Source: Actinokineospora diospyrosa
GTDB lineage: Bacteria > Actinomycetota > Actinomycetes > Mycobacteriales > Pseudonocardiaceae
DNA length: 64,000 bases
Reading direction: 5' to 3'
NCBI RefSeq assembly: GCF_024171925.1
Contig: NZ_JAMTCO010000006.1
Coordinates: 248,001 to 312,000, forward strand
Shown here: piece by piece, positions 44,101 to 50,100 of the stretch
Position numbering within the stretch: position 1 is the first letter of the stretch
How the letters are laid out: the number at the start of each line of letters is the position of its first letter
Position numbers and translations under genes: made by a program
The notes under the pieces: generated by a model
Database searches by the model: none
Seen by the model: only the letters and a program-made list of their open reading frames with translations
Told to the model about the DNA's origin: nothing

Positions 44101-47100
44101 CCACTTCGGACAGTCCACTGTGTAGCAGGGATGGCCGGCTCACCCGTGCGCCACCGTCCTGCCACGCGGCGATGTCCCGCGCCTCGGCGTCGGTCAGCGC
44201 AACCAGGTCGCCGAGCACGCGATCGGGCGCGGCGATCCCCGCGGTCAGCACCTCGCGCAGAGTCGCCACCACGTGCTCAGCCGTGCGGGCGTCGAACAGG
44301 TCGACCGCGTAGTTCAGCTTGCCGCGGATCGAGTCGCCCCGGGTGGTCAGCAGCAGCGCCAAGTCCACCGGGGCCCGATCGATCGCCGCCTCCTGCAAGG
44401 TGGCCACGACGCCGGGCAGGTCCAGCTCGAACGGCGCGTCGCCGTTGATCCGCACCACCACGTCGAACAGCGGGTTCCGCAAGGGGTCGGACGACCCACC
44501 GAGCGCGCGGACGATCTCCGGCAGCGGCACCGCCCGGTGGTCTTGGGCGCCGAGCACCTGCTCGCGCACCTCCCGCACCAGGTCGGCGAAGGTGTCCCCG
44601 TTCGGCGCCCGCAGGCGCAGCGGCAGGGTGTGCACGAAGAAACCGACGGTCTGCTCGGTGCCTTCGGGCCGGTGCGCGATCGGGGTGCCGACCACGATGT
44701 CGGTCTGGCCGCTGAGCTTGCGCAGCGCCAGGACCAGGCCCGCCAGCACGACCATGAACGGCGTGGCCCGGACCTGCCGCGCGAGGTCGCGCACGGCCGC
44801 GGTCGTGGCCACCCCCAGGTCGACGCCGGTGGTCGCCCCCCGCCCGGACGGCTGGGCCCGCCGCGGTCGGTCCGTGGGCAGTGCCAGTTCGGCGGGGGCG
44901 TCGGCGAGCAGGTCCGTCCAGTAGGCCAGGGAGTCTGACGGCACCGGGGACGTCGATCGCCGGGCGCTGGGTTCGGGGAGTTCCGGCTTGGCGCCCGCCA
45001 GCGCGGCCCGGTAGCAGGCGGCGATCTCGGTGGACAGGATGCCCGCGGACCACGTGTCGATGACCAGGTGGTGCATGCGCAGCACCAGCAGGTGCCGGTG
45101 CGGGCCCAGCCGGACCAGCCACGGCTCGAACAGCGGGCCGGTGGCGAGGTCGAACGCCCGGCCGGTCTCCACGGCCGCGATCCGGTTCGCCGCCTCGGCC
45201 GGATCGGCGCCGAGGTCGTCGACCACCGGGAGGTCGACCTGCCGGGTGGGCGCCACGATCCGCCGCGGTTCGCCGTCGACCTCGCTGAACACCGCGCGCA
45301 AGGACGGGTGCCTGCCGACCACGGCAGCCAAGGCCGCCCGCAGCGCGGCGACGTCGAGATCTCCGTCGAGCAGCACGACCAGGGTCTCGTTGTGCGTCGG
45401 CCGGTTCGGGAACGCCTGCTCCAGGTACCAGATCTGCCGCTCGGCGATCGTCATCTCCTGGATCTCCTGCTCGCGCGCCACCACCGCGGGGACCGCGGGG
45501 GCGACCGCAACGGCAGGGAGCGGAAGCGCGGGGATGACTGGAGCGGCGGGGGGTGCGGTTGGGGCGAGGAACGCCGACCGGAGCGCGCCGATCCCGGGCA
45601 GGCCCGCGGTGACCCGTGCGGGCGGCAGGCCGAAGTCGACGAAGCAGGCGATCTCGTCGACCCCGAGCGCGGCCAGCGCCCGCGCGATCGGCTCCACGTC
45701 GGCGGGACTGCCGATCAGCGCCCGGTCCGCGCAGTACCGGTCGTAGGCGCGCGACAGCAGGAAGTCCAGGTCGTCGGCGGGGGTGTTCTCCAGGTCGATC
45801 GAGAACCCCAGGCTGTTGGTCAGCTGGCTGAACAGCGCGAGCGAGGACCGCAGGTAGTCGCAGAACGGCCGGAACGCCTCGGCGCGGATCCGCGCGGTGT
45901 CCTCGCCGAGGTAGGTGTGCAGGAGCACGACCACGCGCCCGGTCGCCGGGTCGAGGCCGTGCGCGGCGCGGGTCTCGCGGTACAGCGCGATGTTGGTGGC
46001 GAGCTCGTCGACGCTCTGCGCCATCAGGTTCGTGATCACCCCGAACCCGCCCGCCCCGGCCTGCCGGTAGCTGTCCGGGTTGCCGACGATGGCCGTGTAG
46101 AAGTCGACTTCGCCCTGCACCGGCCGTGGGTACAGGCGCACGTCCACGGGCTCGCCGTTGCCCGCGGTCCGGCTGATCGGCTCACCGCGCCACAACGCCC
46201 GGATCGTCTCGACGCCCTCGTACATCGCCTCGCGGTGGCGGCCGTAGACCTGCGGCGCGAGCACGAAGTCCCGCGCGTGCCAGCCGCACGCGACACCGAG
46301 GGACACGCGGCCGCCGGACAGGTTGTCCACGACCGACCATTCCTCGGCCACCCGGATCGGGTCGTGCAGCGGCAGCACCACGCTGCCGGAGTGGATGCGC
46401 ACCCGCTCGGTCTGCGCGGCGATCGCGGCGGCGAGCACCGAGGGGTTCGGGAACACCCCGCCGAACGAGTCGAAGTGCCGTTCCGGCAGCCACACCGCGT
46501 GCATCCCGGCCCGGTCGGCGTACCGGGCGGCGGCGAGGATCGCGGCGTACTTGTCGCCGGTGGCGTCGTGCGGGTAGTCGCCGAAGAAGTACAGGCTGAA
46601 GGCCGGTGTGGTCGCGGCCACCTCGACCGCCTCGGGTTCGGCGAGGGGAGCGGTGACGGTCACGGGGACGCGGGGGAGTGCCACGCGCGGTGCGGTGCGC
46701 GGCACCCGGCCGCCGGGCAGGAAACCGCCGCGGCGCAGGTCGTACAGGCTGTTGCGCACGGCGTTGGCGATGAAGTCGAGGTCTTGGTCGGTGTGCGCGG
46801 TGGACAGGAAGAAGTCGCGCTGGCGCCCGACGTGCACGCCTTCCAGGGCGAGGTGCCGGTAGAGCGGATCGAGGCCGTCGTGGGTGAACCGGAACCTCGA
46901 CCCGAACTGCCGCGTGGACACCGGGAACGCCTCGACGCGGAAGAACTCGTCGAGGGTCCGGAGGAGATCCGTGGTGCGCTCAGTGAGCTTGCTCTGCAAG
47001 GTAGTGCCTTGGTCGCGCAGCCAGGTCAGCACGGACTTGGCTGCCACCAACGAAACCGGGTGACTCCCGTCGTCGATCGCGGCCGCCATGATGTCCGCGC

Positions 47101-50100
47101 GACCGCCGACCGCGCTGATCGGGTAGCCGCCGCCGAGCACCCCGCCGTAGATCGCGAGATCCGCTCGCACGCCGAAGATGCCTTGCGCACCTTGAAGGTG
47201 GGCGCGGAATCCGCTCAGCACCTCGTCGATGATCAGCACGACCCCGTGCTGGTCGCAGAGCTGGCGAAGAGTGCGGATGAGATCGACCCGGCTGCCGGGC
47301 ACTGCTTCGACGCGGACGGCCGCGAGCTCACCCGCACGCGCCCTGATCACGTCCAGGTTGGCGCCGTCGAAGGTGACGACCTCTTGACGACCGGTGCGGT
47401 CGCGAGCCAGGCGGAACGCGCTGGTCTCCGCGTCGGCGGTGAACGTGACCTTGTCGTGCCCGGTGAGCTCGCGCAGCAGCTCGGCGGCCTGCCAAGCGTC
47501 CTCGACGCCCGACCCGAGACGCACGCCGTCGGCTAGGTGGGCGTTGACGGCGTCGGTCACGAACGCGGGCTCGTGGCCGAACAGGAGGGCGCCGAAACCC
47601 AGGGCGATGTCGACGTAGGTGTTGCCGTCGATGTCCTCCAGGTGTGCTCCGCGCGCCCGTCGGGCCACGATCGGGTACTCGTCGTCGGCCCGCTGGTGGC
47701 GCCGTGCGATATCCCAGGATCGCGCCGTCCGCTCGGTGTAGCGGCGTGCGAGGTCGGCCACGTGCGCGCGCTGACGCTCATCAAGGGGCGCCTGGACCTC
47801 CACTGGGGGCTGTCCTGTGTGGACTTGTGCTGCCGGTACTGCGGGCGTCGGCTCGACCGGGGGCGGCGTGGGGGTGTGAGCGGGTGTGCCTGCCAGGAGG
47901 GCGACCTGGTCGGACATGATCAGCGCGAACCGCTCCATCAGGTCCAGTTGGTCCCGCAAGATCGCCTCGTGGCCTGCCCCCGACACCTGCGCCGGCGGCG
48001 GAACGGGCAACTGGGGTTGCGCGGGCTGTGCTGACGGCGCGGACTGCGCGGCGGGTGCCGGGCTCGCCGTGGTGACCGCCGGGGGCGCGGCCTCGGTCGG
48101 CACCAGGGCAGCGCGCTGCTCGACGGACATCCGCTCCACGATCACCCCGGTCACCTTGTCGGGGGTGTCGGCGTCGCCGAACAGCTCACGCATGGCGACC
48201 CGCACACCGAAGGCGGTCTGCAGTTCGCGCACCATGTTGACCATCAGCAGCGAATCGGCGCCCAGTTCGACGAAGGCGACGTCAGGGCCGATGCGGTCCG
48301 GTTTGTCGCCGAGGTAGTGGGCGGTCACCTCGCGCACCTTCCGCAAGACCACGTCCCGCAGCAGCACTGTCCCCTCGGTCACTTCGCCTCCCGCCATCGC
48401 TGATCCCTTCACAGCCGCCGGTTCGGCCCAGTACCGGACCAGTTGGAACGGGTAGGTGGGCAGCGGCACCCGCCGCCCCGGGTGCAGAGCGCCCCACTCA
48501 ACATCGACGCCGTGGCAGAACAGCCCCGCGAGCCCGGGGACCACGCTGTCGGCTCCCCGCCGCAGCACCGGCAACCACGTCGTCCCCGGCCACTGTCGTC
48601 CCAAGGCGCTCAGCGGACCAGGTGGCCCCACCTCGACGAACGTGCTGGCACCGCCCGCCACCAGCCGGTCAACCCCCGCGCGGTAGTCCACGACCGCCCG
48701 GGTGTGGGCGCGCACGTGCTCGGCCCCGAGCACCGTGCCGGGTGGCAGGAGGGCGCCGCCCAGGCCGGTCACCACGGGCAGCCGGGTCGGTCGCCACTCG
48801 ACCCTGGCGGCTTGTCTGTCCAGCTCGTCCAGAGCGGGTTCGACCATGGACGTGTGGAACGCCCGATCACCCGGAACTCGCCTGCAGTCCACCCCGCGCG
48901 CGGTGAGGACCTCGACCGCGGCGTCCACCGCCTCGGCAGGGCCACCGAACACCGTCTGCCCGGCGGCGTTGCGCACCGCGAGCTCCAAACCCGCAGGCGC
49001 GTCGATCTCGTCGAAGACCGCGAGCAGCGCGCCCTCAGCGACGCCTTGGAGCACCGCGCCCCGCACCCCGGCCAGGTGCATCGCGTCCTCAGGGGACAGT
49101 GCCCCTGCCACGCAGAGCGCCGCGTATTCGCCCGCGCTATGGCCGATCACCAGGTCCGGGCGCACGCCAAGGTGGTCAAGCAGGGCGACCTGGGCCAGGT
49201 GCAGGGCCAGGAGCGCGGGTTGGCCGGTCGCGGTGGTCCACCCGTACTCGTCGGCCAACAAAGGGCCCAGCAGGTCAGTGCCCCAGGTGTCGCGGTGCTG
49301 TTCAGCGCAGCGGCGCAGCACCGAGGCCGCTGCGGGGTGGGCCATCAGGGCCCGGGCGGCACCTGTGAGGTTTGTGCCTTGGCCGGAGAACGCGAACACC
49401 ACCGGCCCGGGATTGACCGCCACCCCGGCCAGCGAACCGCCCGCGCGCAACGCCTCTGCCGTGTCGTCACCCCACGCGACGAGGCGGTGCGGGTACCGAC
49501 GGCGGCCCACGCCGAGCGTGGTGAGCACATCTGCGGGGGACGTCGTGCCAGACTCGACGACCGTGGCCAGCTGGTCGGCCAGTTCGGCCAGTGCCGTCTC
49601 GTCACGGGCCGATAGCGGCACCACCCAGGGCGCTGGCTCCTCGGCGGGCCGAGTGGTGTCCGGTGCCTGCTCCAAGATCACGTGGGCGTTCGTGCCCCCC
49701 ACCCCGAGCGCGGTCACCCCGGCCCGGCGCACCCCGGCGACCGGCCAGGCCCGCGCGCTCGTGGGCACCTCGATCGGGCCGTCGCCCAGGCGCAGGGCTG
49801 GGCTGGGGGTGCGCAGGTTCGGCTGCGGCGGCACGGTCGCGTGGCGCAGCGCGAGCACCGCCTTGATCACACCGGCCATGCCCGCGCAGCTGTCCAGGTG
49901 CCCGATGTTCGCCTTCACCGACCCGATCAGCACCGGCTCGGTCCGCGACCCGAACACCTCCCGCAGGGCCTCGACCTCGATCGGGTCCCCGAGCGCGGTC
50001 CCCGTGCCGTGCGCCTCGACGTACCCGACGGCCGCCGGGTCGAGGTCGGCCGCCGCGAGCGCGTCGCGGATGACCGACACCTGGCCCACCAGGCCCGGCG

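Follow-up and report, generated by a model that had tools for sequence, protein, structure and literature searches.

A probably dead, shortened aminotransferase domain retained in frame in a hybrid megasynthase of Actinokineospora diospyrosa

The 64,000-nucleotide stretch of Actinokineospora diospyrosa DNA analysed in this study (the window; G+C 72%; contig C6 of the 8.1-Mb genome G000) encodes a hybrid polyketide synthase/nonribosomal peptide synthetase (PKS/NRPS) megasynthase, in which an embedded class III aminotransferase (AMT) domain has lost its pyridoxal phosphate (PLP) lysine together with several active-site segments, and in which the reading frame has remained open. Orthologs of this protein with an intact AMT, with a similarly damaged AMT and with no AMT at all were found in related genomes, of which G003, G007 and G014 are other species of the same genus. 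These data suggest, with a probability of roughly 0.7, that the domain is a pseudo-aminotransferase, that is, the dead descendant of a working AMT, which may now serve as a spacer or scaffold, past which the chain would travel unaminated, and which would represent a stage between the intact and the excised forms.

Lesions of the embedded aminotransferase domain

The megasynthase gene is an open, uninterrupted frame, as a sequence-only reading of the window had already noted. The domain assignments made with Pfam and NCBIfam were as follows.

41177..54649, minus strand: hybrid PKS/NRPS megasynthase, 4,490 amino acids, with the order FAAL-KR-ACP-KS-AT-ACP-(dead AMT)-LLM-C-A-T-C
52550..54187, minus strand: FAAL (acyl-AMP ligase) domain, residues 155-700, 89% identical to that of G003
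51170..52492, minus strand: loading-module KR, residues 720-1160, with the motifs TGGLGG and SSLL...GAYVAGN found
50975..51157, minus strand: ACP1, residues 1165-1225
49700..50941, minus strand: KS, residues 1237-1650
48395..49417, minus strand: AT, residues 1745-2085
48110..48307, minus strand: ACP2, residues 2115-2180
47882..47974, minus strand: pre-AMT segment GHEAILRDQL...LLAGTP, residues 2226-2256, putatively helical and detectable also in the AMT-less proteins of G007, G014 and G442
46721..47785, minus strand: class III aminotransferase remnant, dead and shortened, residues 2289-2643 (355 residues)
45575..46600, minus strand: LLM monooxygenase domain of the MupA/Atu3671 family (TIGR04020), 94% identical to that of G003
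41180..45502, minus strand: NRPS part, with C at 45502-44150, A at 44122-42740, T at 42688-42485 and the terminal C at 42460-41180

Signature motifs of the KS, the AT and the carrier proteins were found. The AMT remnant lies between an ACP and the LLM domain, which is followed by C-A-T, and this is the position of an embedded AMT of the PuwE kind. In the first C domain the sequence HHLVIDT (45053-45073, residues 3193-3199) gives the pattern HHxxxDT; the usual motif of C domains is HHxxxDG.

The remnant still matched the Pfam profile PF00202 with 90.8 bits (cut-off 30.5), in two stretches, the best of which covered positions 184-308 of the 403 in the profile. By alignment its core comprised 355 residues, and since the cores of 11 intact relatives have 440-445, this bears out the shortening by some 90 residues that had been estimated beforehand. 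The PLP-lysine site of the YGKxxGGG motif, which here reads YGGVLGGGYPIS, is occupied by Gly2503 (codon GGG, 47141-47143, minus strand); the sequence-only reading had recognised this substitution correctly but had numbered it Gly2502 (47144-47146). A lysine stands at the site in 11/11 intact LLM-linked AMTs and in 10/10 other relatives, and none of the alignments placed a lysine from elsewhere in the remnant at the PLP site. The other lesions and the retained Asp were located as follows.

47675..47680, minus strand: junction E2324/Y2325 of a 13-residue deletion
47402..47440, minus strand: altered phosphate-cup motif (SGTEA), residues 2404-2416, reading TADAETSAFRLAR, with the TTG of the reference missing between T2404 and A2405
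47360..47365, minus strand: junction G2429/A2430 of a 45-residue deletion, which takes out the YHG segment after VVTFDG
47291..47296, minus strand: junction G2452/S2453 of a 5-residue deletion after VEAVP, common to G003
47225..47227, minus strand: Asp of the DE motif (D2475 in IIDEV), retained
47063..47068, minus strand: junction G2528/S2529 of a 22-residue deletion, which takes out the GGT (GT) loop

Relative to the intact ortholog of G217, the domain has lost 2 and 13 residues near 2320-2325, then 3, 45, 5 and 22 residues, and 1 residue near its end. The change in the SGTEA motif and the lack of the YHG stretch had been noticed from the sequence, and both proved real; the losses of 2 and 13, of 5, of 22 and of 1 residues are additions to that account. 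At the SGTEA site the TTG is deleted and the following T-E is aligned with A-D, an arrangement that depends on the alignment at this spot. Section 9 of PMC3870968 describes what these residues do, among them the Asp, which pairs with the pyridine nitrogen, the Schiff-base Lys, the Tyr that stacks on PLP, those that bind the phosphate and a Thr contributed by the partner subunit. The stacking Tyr of YHG falls within the 45-residue deletion and the partner-subunit Thr of the GT loop within the 22-residue deletion. All PLP-binding features tested were lost except the Asp.

The remnant nevertheless remains recognisable beyond its profile match. It retains 126 of the 205 columns that are invariant in the 11 intact relatives, while 40 fall within deletions and 39 carry a substitution; the AMT of G003 retains 118/205, and 111/205 are kept in both. 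This retention is more than would be expected by chance. The leave-one-out figures for the intact relatives themselves (205 of 205 to 212) are in part a consequence of how the columns were defined, and an AMT-like protein with no LLM domain beside it (G187), aligned in an earlier set, was excluded from this comparison. Moreover, a hidden Markov model (HMM) built from six intact AMTs scored the window at 427 bits and G003 at 377 bits, whereas G007 and G442 gave no match up to an E-value of 10, and no more than 1.2 bits was reached by G014 or by those AMT-less LLM proteins that were listed. The best match of the remnant among solved structures was the AMT of mycosubtilin synthase (E 1.1e-59), aligned in three pieces.

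Orthologs and selection on the remnant

Among the 16 genomes of the genus, G003 carries on a single contig an ortholog of the megasynthase with 80.5% identity across 4,493 aligned columns. Its AMT also has a Gly at the PLP-lysine site (codon GGC), deletions that overlap those of the window and the same 5-residue deletion; in addition, it has an 11-residue deletion of its own, and its YHG deletion is shorter than that of the window. The catalytic residues have been lost and the frame has been kept in both species, which is what is expected of a pseudoenzyme. Because the Gly and the 5-residue deletion are common to both proteins, the loss of catalysis is placed before the split of G000 and G003.

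Intact AMTs within the same architecture were found in three further genera, represented by G218 and G217, by G137 and G141, and by G448 and G538; the frame of G217 (locus L084) ends within the first C domain, and G538 is a short contig that covers KS to LLM only. In G007 and G014, both of the window's genus, the protein begins at the KS and has no AMT, and G442, a congener of G448 and G538, has lost its AMT as well as the FAAL-KR-ACP part. Loss of FAAL-KR-ACP was seen to accompany loss of the AMT in these two independent lineages (L154 in G442; L133 in G007 and L134 in G014). Searches of the surroundings of these loci (69-71 kb for G007 and G014, 45 kb for G442) gave no KR, no AMT and no FAAL of 33% identity or above. 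The linker between AMT and LLM is recognisable in G007 and G442, and in G014 by its last residues only.

In a tree of the shared domains, the four same-genus proteins formed one clade (support 100), and G442 grouped with G448 and G538 (100), so that AMT function has been lost at least twice. The branch of G217 is too long in this tree, since what was taken as its "C2" is a paralogous stretch; G538 (L156) contributes KS to LLM only.

LLM domains were found at E<=1e-100 in at least 24 of 390 genomes of the family, including at least 4 of the 16 genomes of the genus; at E<=1e-150 matches were found in at least 4 of 397 genomes of the order and at least 3 of 394 of the class, with the window's genome counted in each. 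These counts are lower bounds, because only the best few first-look candidates were scored per genome. The locus comparison covered 26 of the 27 listed LLM places (G244 was left out), and two other class-level genomes were not part of it. Fourteen of the 26 places (L135-L148) are FAAL-ACP-KS-AT-ACP-LLM lines, 12 of which continue with C-A-T-C in the stretch covered, and none of the fourteen showed a KR match at E<1e-10 or an AMT match at E<1e-3; LLM lines lacking an AMT are therefore common in the family. Both G000 (contig C24, L135) and G003 (L136) contain such a line as a second LLM megasynthase (FAAL-ACP-KS-AT-ACP-LLM-C-A-T-C), with no AMT or KR match.

The selection acting on the remnant was estimated from the ratio of nonsynonymous to synonymous substitution rates (dN/dS). 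Between the window and G003 the AMT gave 0.304 (bootstrap 0.22-0.40) with 30 gap columns, whereas three pairs of intact AMTs gave 0.096, 0.135 and 0.155 with 0 gap columns each. The other large domains of the window/G003 pair ranged from 0.08 to 0.30 with 0-10 gap columns, and the LLM domain beside the AMT aligned without any gap. The KR reached 0.300 in this pair, but its values in intact pairs were similar (0.294 and 0.258), which is not the case for the AMT. The ratio is even along the remnant, at 0.302-0.304 for its N-terminal, middle and C-terminal parts. Neutral simulations of the AMT stretch gave 0.81-1.19 under equal rates (30 runs) and 1.13-2.07 under the fourfold-site spectrum (40 runs). 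For this one pair, the constraint on the remnant is relaxed two- to threefold and is not absent; the domain has remained under purifying selection since catalysis was lost, with a dN/dS of 0.30 against neutral values of 0.81 or more and linker values of 0.38-0.44. The sequence-only reading had regarded the domain as retained and catalytically dead, and this view is supported by the loss of the key residues, from the in-frame ortholog of G003, which is dead in a similar way, and from a dN/dS below simulated neutrality.

Proposed history, competing explanations and neighbouring genes

The following course of events is proposed. By analogy with puwainaphycin-type lines, the ancestral class III AMT would have aminated the beta-carbon of the chain bound to ACP2, and the LLM domain would have hydroxylated the alpha-carbon. 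The Gly at the lysine site, the 5-residue deletion and the overlapping active-site deletions, all shared, show that two or more species inherited the loss of catalysis from an ancestor they have in common. Later in-frame deletions have trimmed the active-site segments, leaving a remainder that stays in frame under the weakened, non-neutral selection measured in the one pair. This remainder most likely still folds, at least in part, and would serve as a scaffold or spacer that separates ACP2 from the LLM domain; a role as spacer is plausible. Given the loss of the motifs, beta-amination by the remnant is very unlikely, and the chain would reach the LLM and C domains without an added amine. It would then probably be a 2-hydroxy-3-oxo acyl chain, for which the related FAAL-ACP-KS-AT-ACP-LLM lines devoid of KR and AMT serve as comparison. 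An LLM domain has been proposed for alpha-hydroxylation in palmerolide biosynthesis (PMC8739492). The remnant would accordingly be a state between the intact AMT of other genera and the excision seen in two species of its own genus and, independently, in one species of another genus.

Several observations weigh against this reading. Higher ratios than that of the remnant were obtained for the linkers flanking the AMT (0.435 and 0.378) and for the first half of the KR (0.368), so that a value of 0.30 is not enough by itself to mark out a domain that is folded and under selection; this value, moreover, comes from simple counts by the Nei-Gojobori method in a single pair of species. The linker before the AMT shows 16 gap columns between the window and G003. 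The 30 gap columns of the AMT and the 11-residue deletion peculiar to G003 suggest that decay is continuing, and in G007, G014 and G442 the AMT is absent altogether.

The strongest competitor shares the dead-domain core and differs on the spacer: the remnant would be a roleless relic on its way to excision, with its low dN/dS reflecting the avoidance of misfolding or aggregation. The relaxed ratio and the 30 gap columns fit this explanation, as do the foldless linkers with only somewhat higher ratios (0.378 and 0.435) and the complete loss of the AMT in G007, G014 and, independently, G442. However, the ratio lies well below the simulated neutral values and is even along the domain (0.302-0.304), and the same 111 of 205 invariant columns have been kept in both species. 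The relic explanation is thus given somewhat less than even odds.

A further explanation, which is compatible with a pseudo-aminotransferase, invokes a rewiring of the pathway, in which a gene cassette containing an alpha-oxoamine synthase (AOS) would supply the nitrogen as an amino-keto unit and make the AMT dispensable. The genes upstream of the megasynthase, with those of the cassette marked, are as follows.

54651..55928, minus strand: MFS transporter, which also adjoins the megasynthase in G003, G218, G141, G137, G007, G014 and G442, with no match beside G217
55937..56488, minus strand: MaoC/RipB-like (R)-enoyl-CoA hydratase (cassette), under the curated RipB cut-off
56505..57761, minus strand: AOS-like PLP enzyme of 418 amino acids (cassette), over the cut-off for PRK07505 ('hypothetical protein'), with the BioF/Kbl type below
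57758..58693, minus strand: CitE/RipC-like C-C lyase (cassette), under the curated cut-offs
58694..59710, minus strand: zinc-type alcohol dehydrogenase (ADH), quinone-reductase-like (cassette)
60508..64000, plus strand: start of a divergent NRPS gene of 2,081 amino acids in all, which begins with A, T and C, has further A, T and C matches and runs past the window

This cassette was found beside 4/4 same-genus loci, two with a dead AMT and two with none; between the window and the copies of G003, G007 and G014 the genes share 76-95% identity. It was found beside none of the four intact loci of G217, G218, G137 and G141 (about 57 kb each), and no AOS, lyase or ADH match was found in 43 kb around the intact locus of G448 or in 45 kb around the AMT-less locus of G442, where open frames of more than 250 amino acids were searched, so that a gene of MaoC size could have been missed. 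The contrast of 4/4 same-genus loci with 0/5 intact loci with flanks speaks for rewiring. Phylogenetically, however, it amounts to one event, and the AOS cassette as the sole cause is weakened because G442 lost its AMT without such genes. The cassette also occurs away from LLM megasynthases: in a search of frames of more than 180 amino acids, distant copies were found in G043 and G251 (four genes) and in G084 (no ADH match), with no LLM megasynthase in the stretches covered. In addition, its chemistry is read from family names, with most matches under curated cut-offs. Rewiring is accordingly regarded as possible, at slightly longer odds than the relic. As a speculation from the same family names, the dicarboxyl-CoA-type enzymes and the AOS of 55937-59710 could make a delta-amino-gamma-keto acid. 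In G007 (L166), a single TGA lies within the part of the AOS-like gene that matches the AOS-like protein.

A more ambitious version of the pseudo-aminotransferase reading would hold that the remnant is a selected, stripped scaffold, from which the cofactor segments were removed stepwise and whose core holds the carrier protein and the monooxygenase; that acquisition of the AOS cassette moved the point of nitrogen entry; and that excision occurred at least twice, each time with loss of FAAL-KR-ACP. This fuller account is considered doubtful.

The sequence-only reading had also suggested that the amine might come from an enzyme acting in trans, in which case another class III aminotransferase would act and the product would still be a 3-amino-2-hydroxy acyl chain. 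The genome does encode other AMT-like proteins, including a 1,890-amino-acid PKS with an AMT on contig C3, and G003, G007 and G014 likewise encode related AMT-PKS proteins. However, the AMT on C3 belongs to its own PKS line, and such a PKS is also present in G008, which has no LLM match at E<=1e-100. No other class III aminotransferase was found in the window and the next 28 kb, nor in the stretches of 69-71 kb searched at the loci of G007 and G014, and AMT-less relatives exist; this suggestion has thus found little support and is judged improbable. Finally, a sequencing or assembly error, to which the compact clustering of the in-frame gaps might point, can be set aside as extremely improbable because G003, whose genome is a single contig, has the Lys-to-Gly change at the identical site with overlapping and additional deletions, next to an LLM domain that aligns gap-free.

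The KR was also considered as a cause of the loss of the AMT or as a replacement for it. Its motifs are intact, but it is not taken as a probable substitute, because the orthologs with an intact AMT have a KR too and because loading KRs have been proposed to reduce alpha-keto acid starters (PMC13252402).

Other genes of the window were noted as well. The divergent NRPS at 60508 has a close ortholog (82%) in G003 only, among the loci tested. After the megasynthase (37184-41125) lie two frames with no Pfam match (39514-40269 and 40253-41125) and an M6-type peptidase, of which 40253-41125 is conserved in G003 at 68% and the peptidase at 91-95%. The left third of the window (5049-20289) contains genes of a contractile injection system, namely baseplate J, gp25, GPD/base V, sheath, AAA ATPase and an eCIS core domain.

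Relation to known systems and significance

PuwE of the puwainaphycin pathway combines a PKS module, an aminotransferase, a monooxygenase and an NRPS module (PMC4219810). Its AMT is treated there as functional, whereas the AMT of the window lacks the lysine and about 90 residues, and its line opens with a fused FAAL-KR-ACP. The AMT of MycA from mycosubtilin synthase (PDB 6kfm, 6kfr and 6kfu), called functionally characterised in PMC3870968, has K at the site and possesses the segments that lie between the three matching pieces of the remnant. Floridanemamide/pahayokolide-type lines likewise have a loading-module KR and a downstream aminotransferase-monooxygenase pair (PMC13252402), but these lines are cyanobacterial, and the aminotransferase is presented there as active.

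Lysine-less fold-type-I PLP domains embedded in PKS/NRPS proteins, to which the remnant of the window is similar, are already in print, as are embedded domains that lack certain structural segments (PMC3870968). In that paper, a Thr at the lysine site is given for two Methylobacterium extorquens entries and for Methyloversatilis, and a Val for Sorangium, and embedded domains are said to miss, in some cases, a surface helix at the edge of the active site (Aminotran_3) or the N-terminal domain (Pyridoxal_deC). The part of it considered describes no joint loss of the phosphate-cup, stacking and GT segments, no staged orthologs and no selection on a dead remnant. A cofactor-stripped AMT remnant with intact and excised close orthologs and a measured change in constraint was not found in the open-licence PMC literature searched, partly with demanding combinations of terms; for inactive, dead or lost AMT domains one paper was listed (PMC7157528).

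In conclusion, the loss of domains from megasynthases is usually inferred from end states, and here intact, dead-and-shrinking and excised forms of one ortholog are available, with the neighbouring domains serving as internal controls for the erosion of the AMT. Since the dead domain still scores above the cut-off of PF00202, an AMT call based on homology alone would wrongly predict a beta-amino product. Moreover, the excised orthologs suggest natural linker boundaries at which an AMT may be removed without breaking the line.

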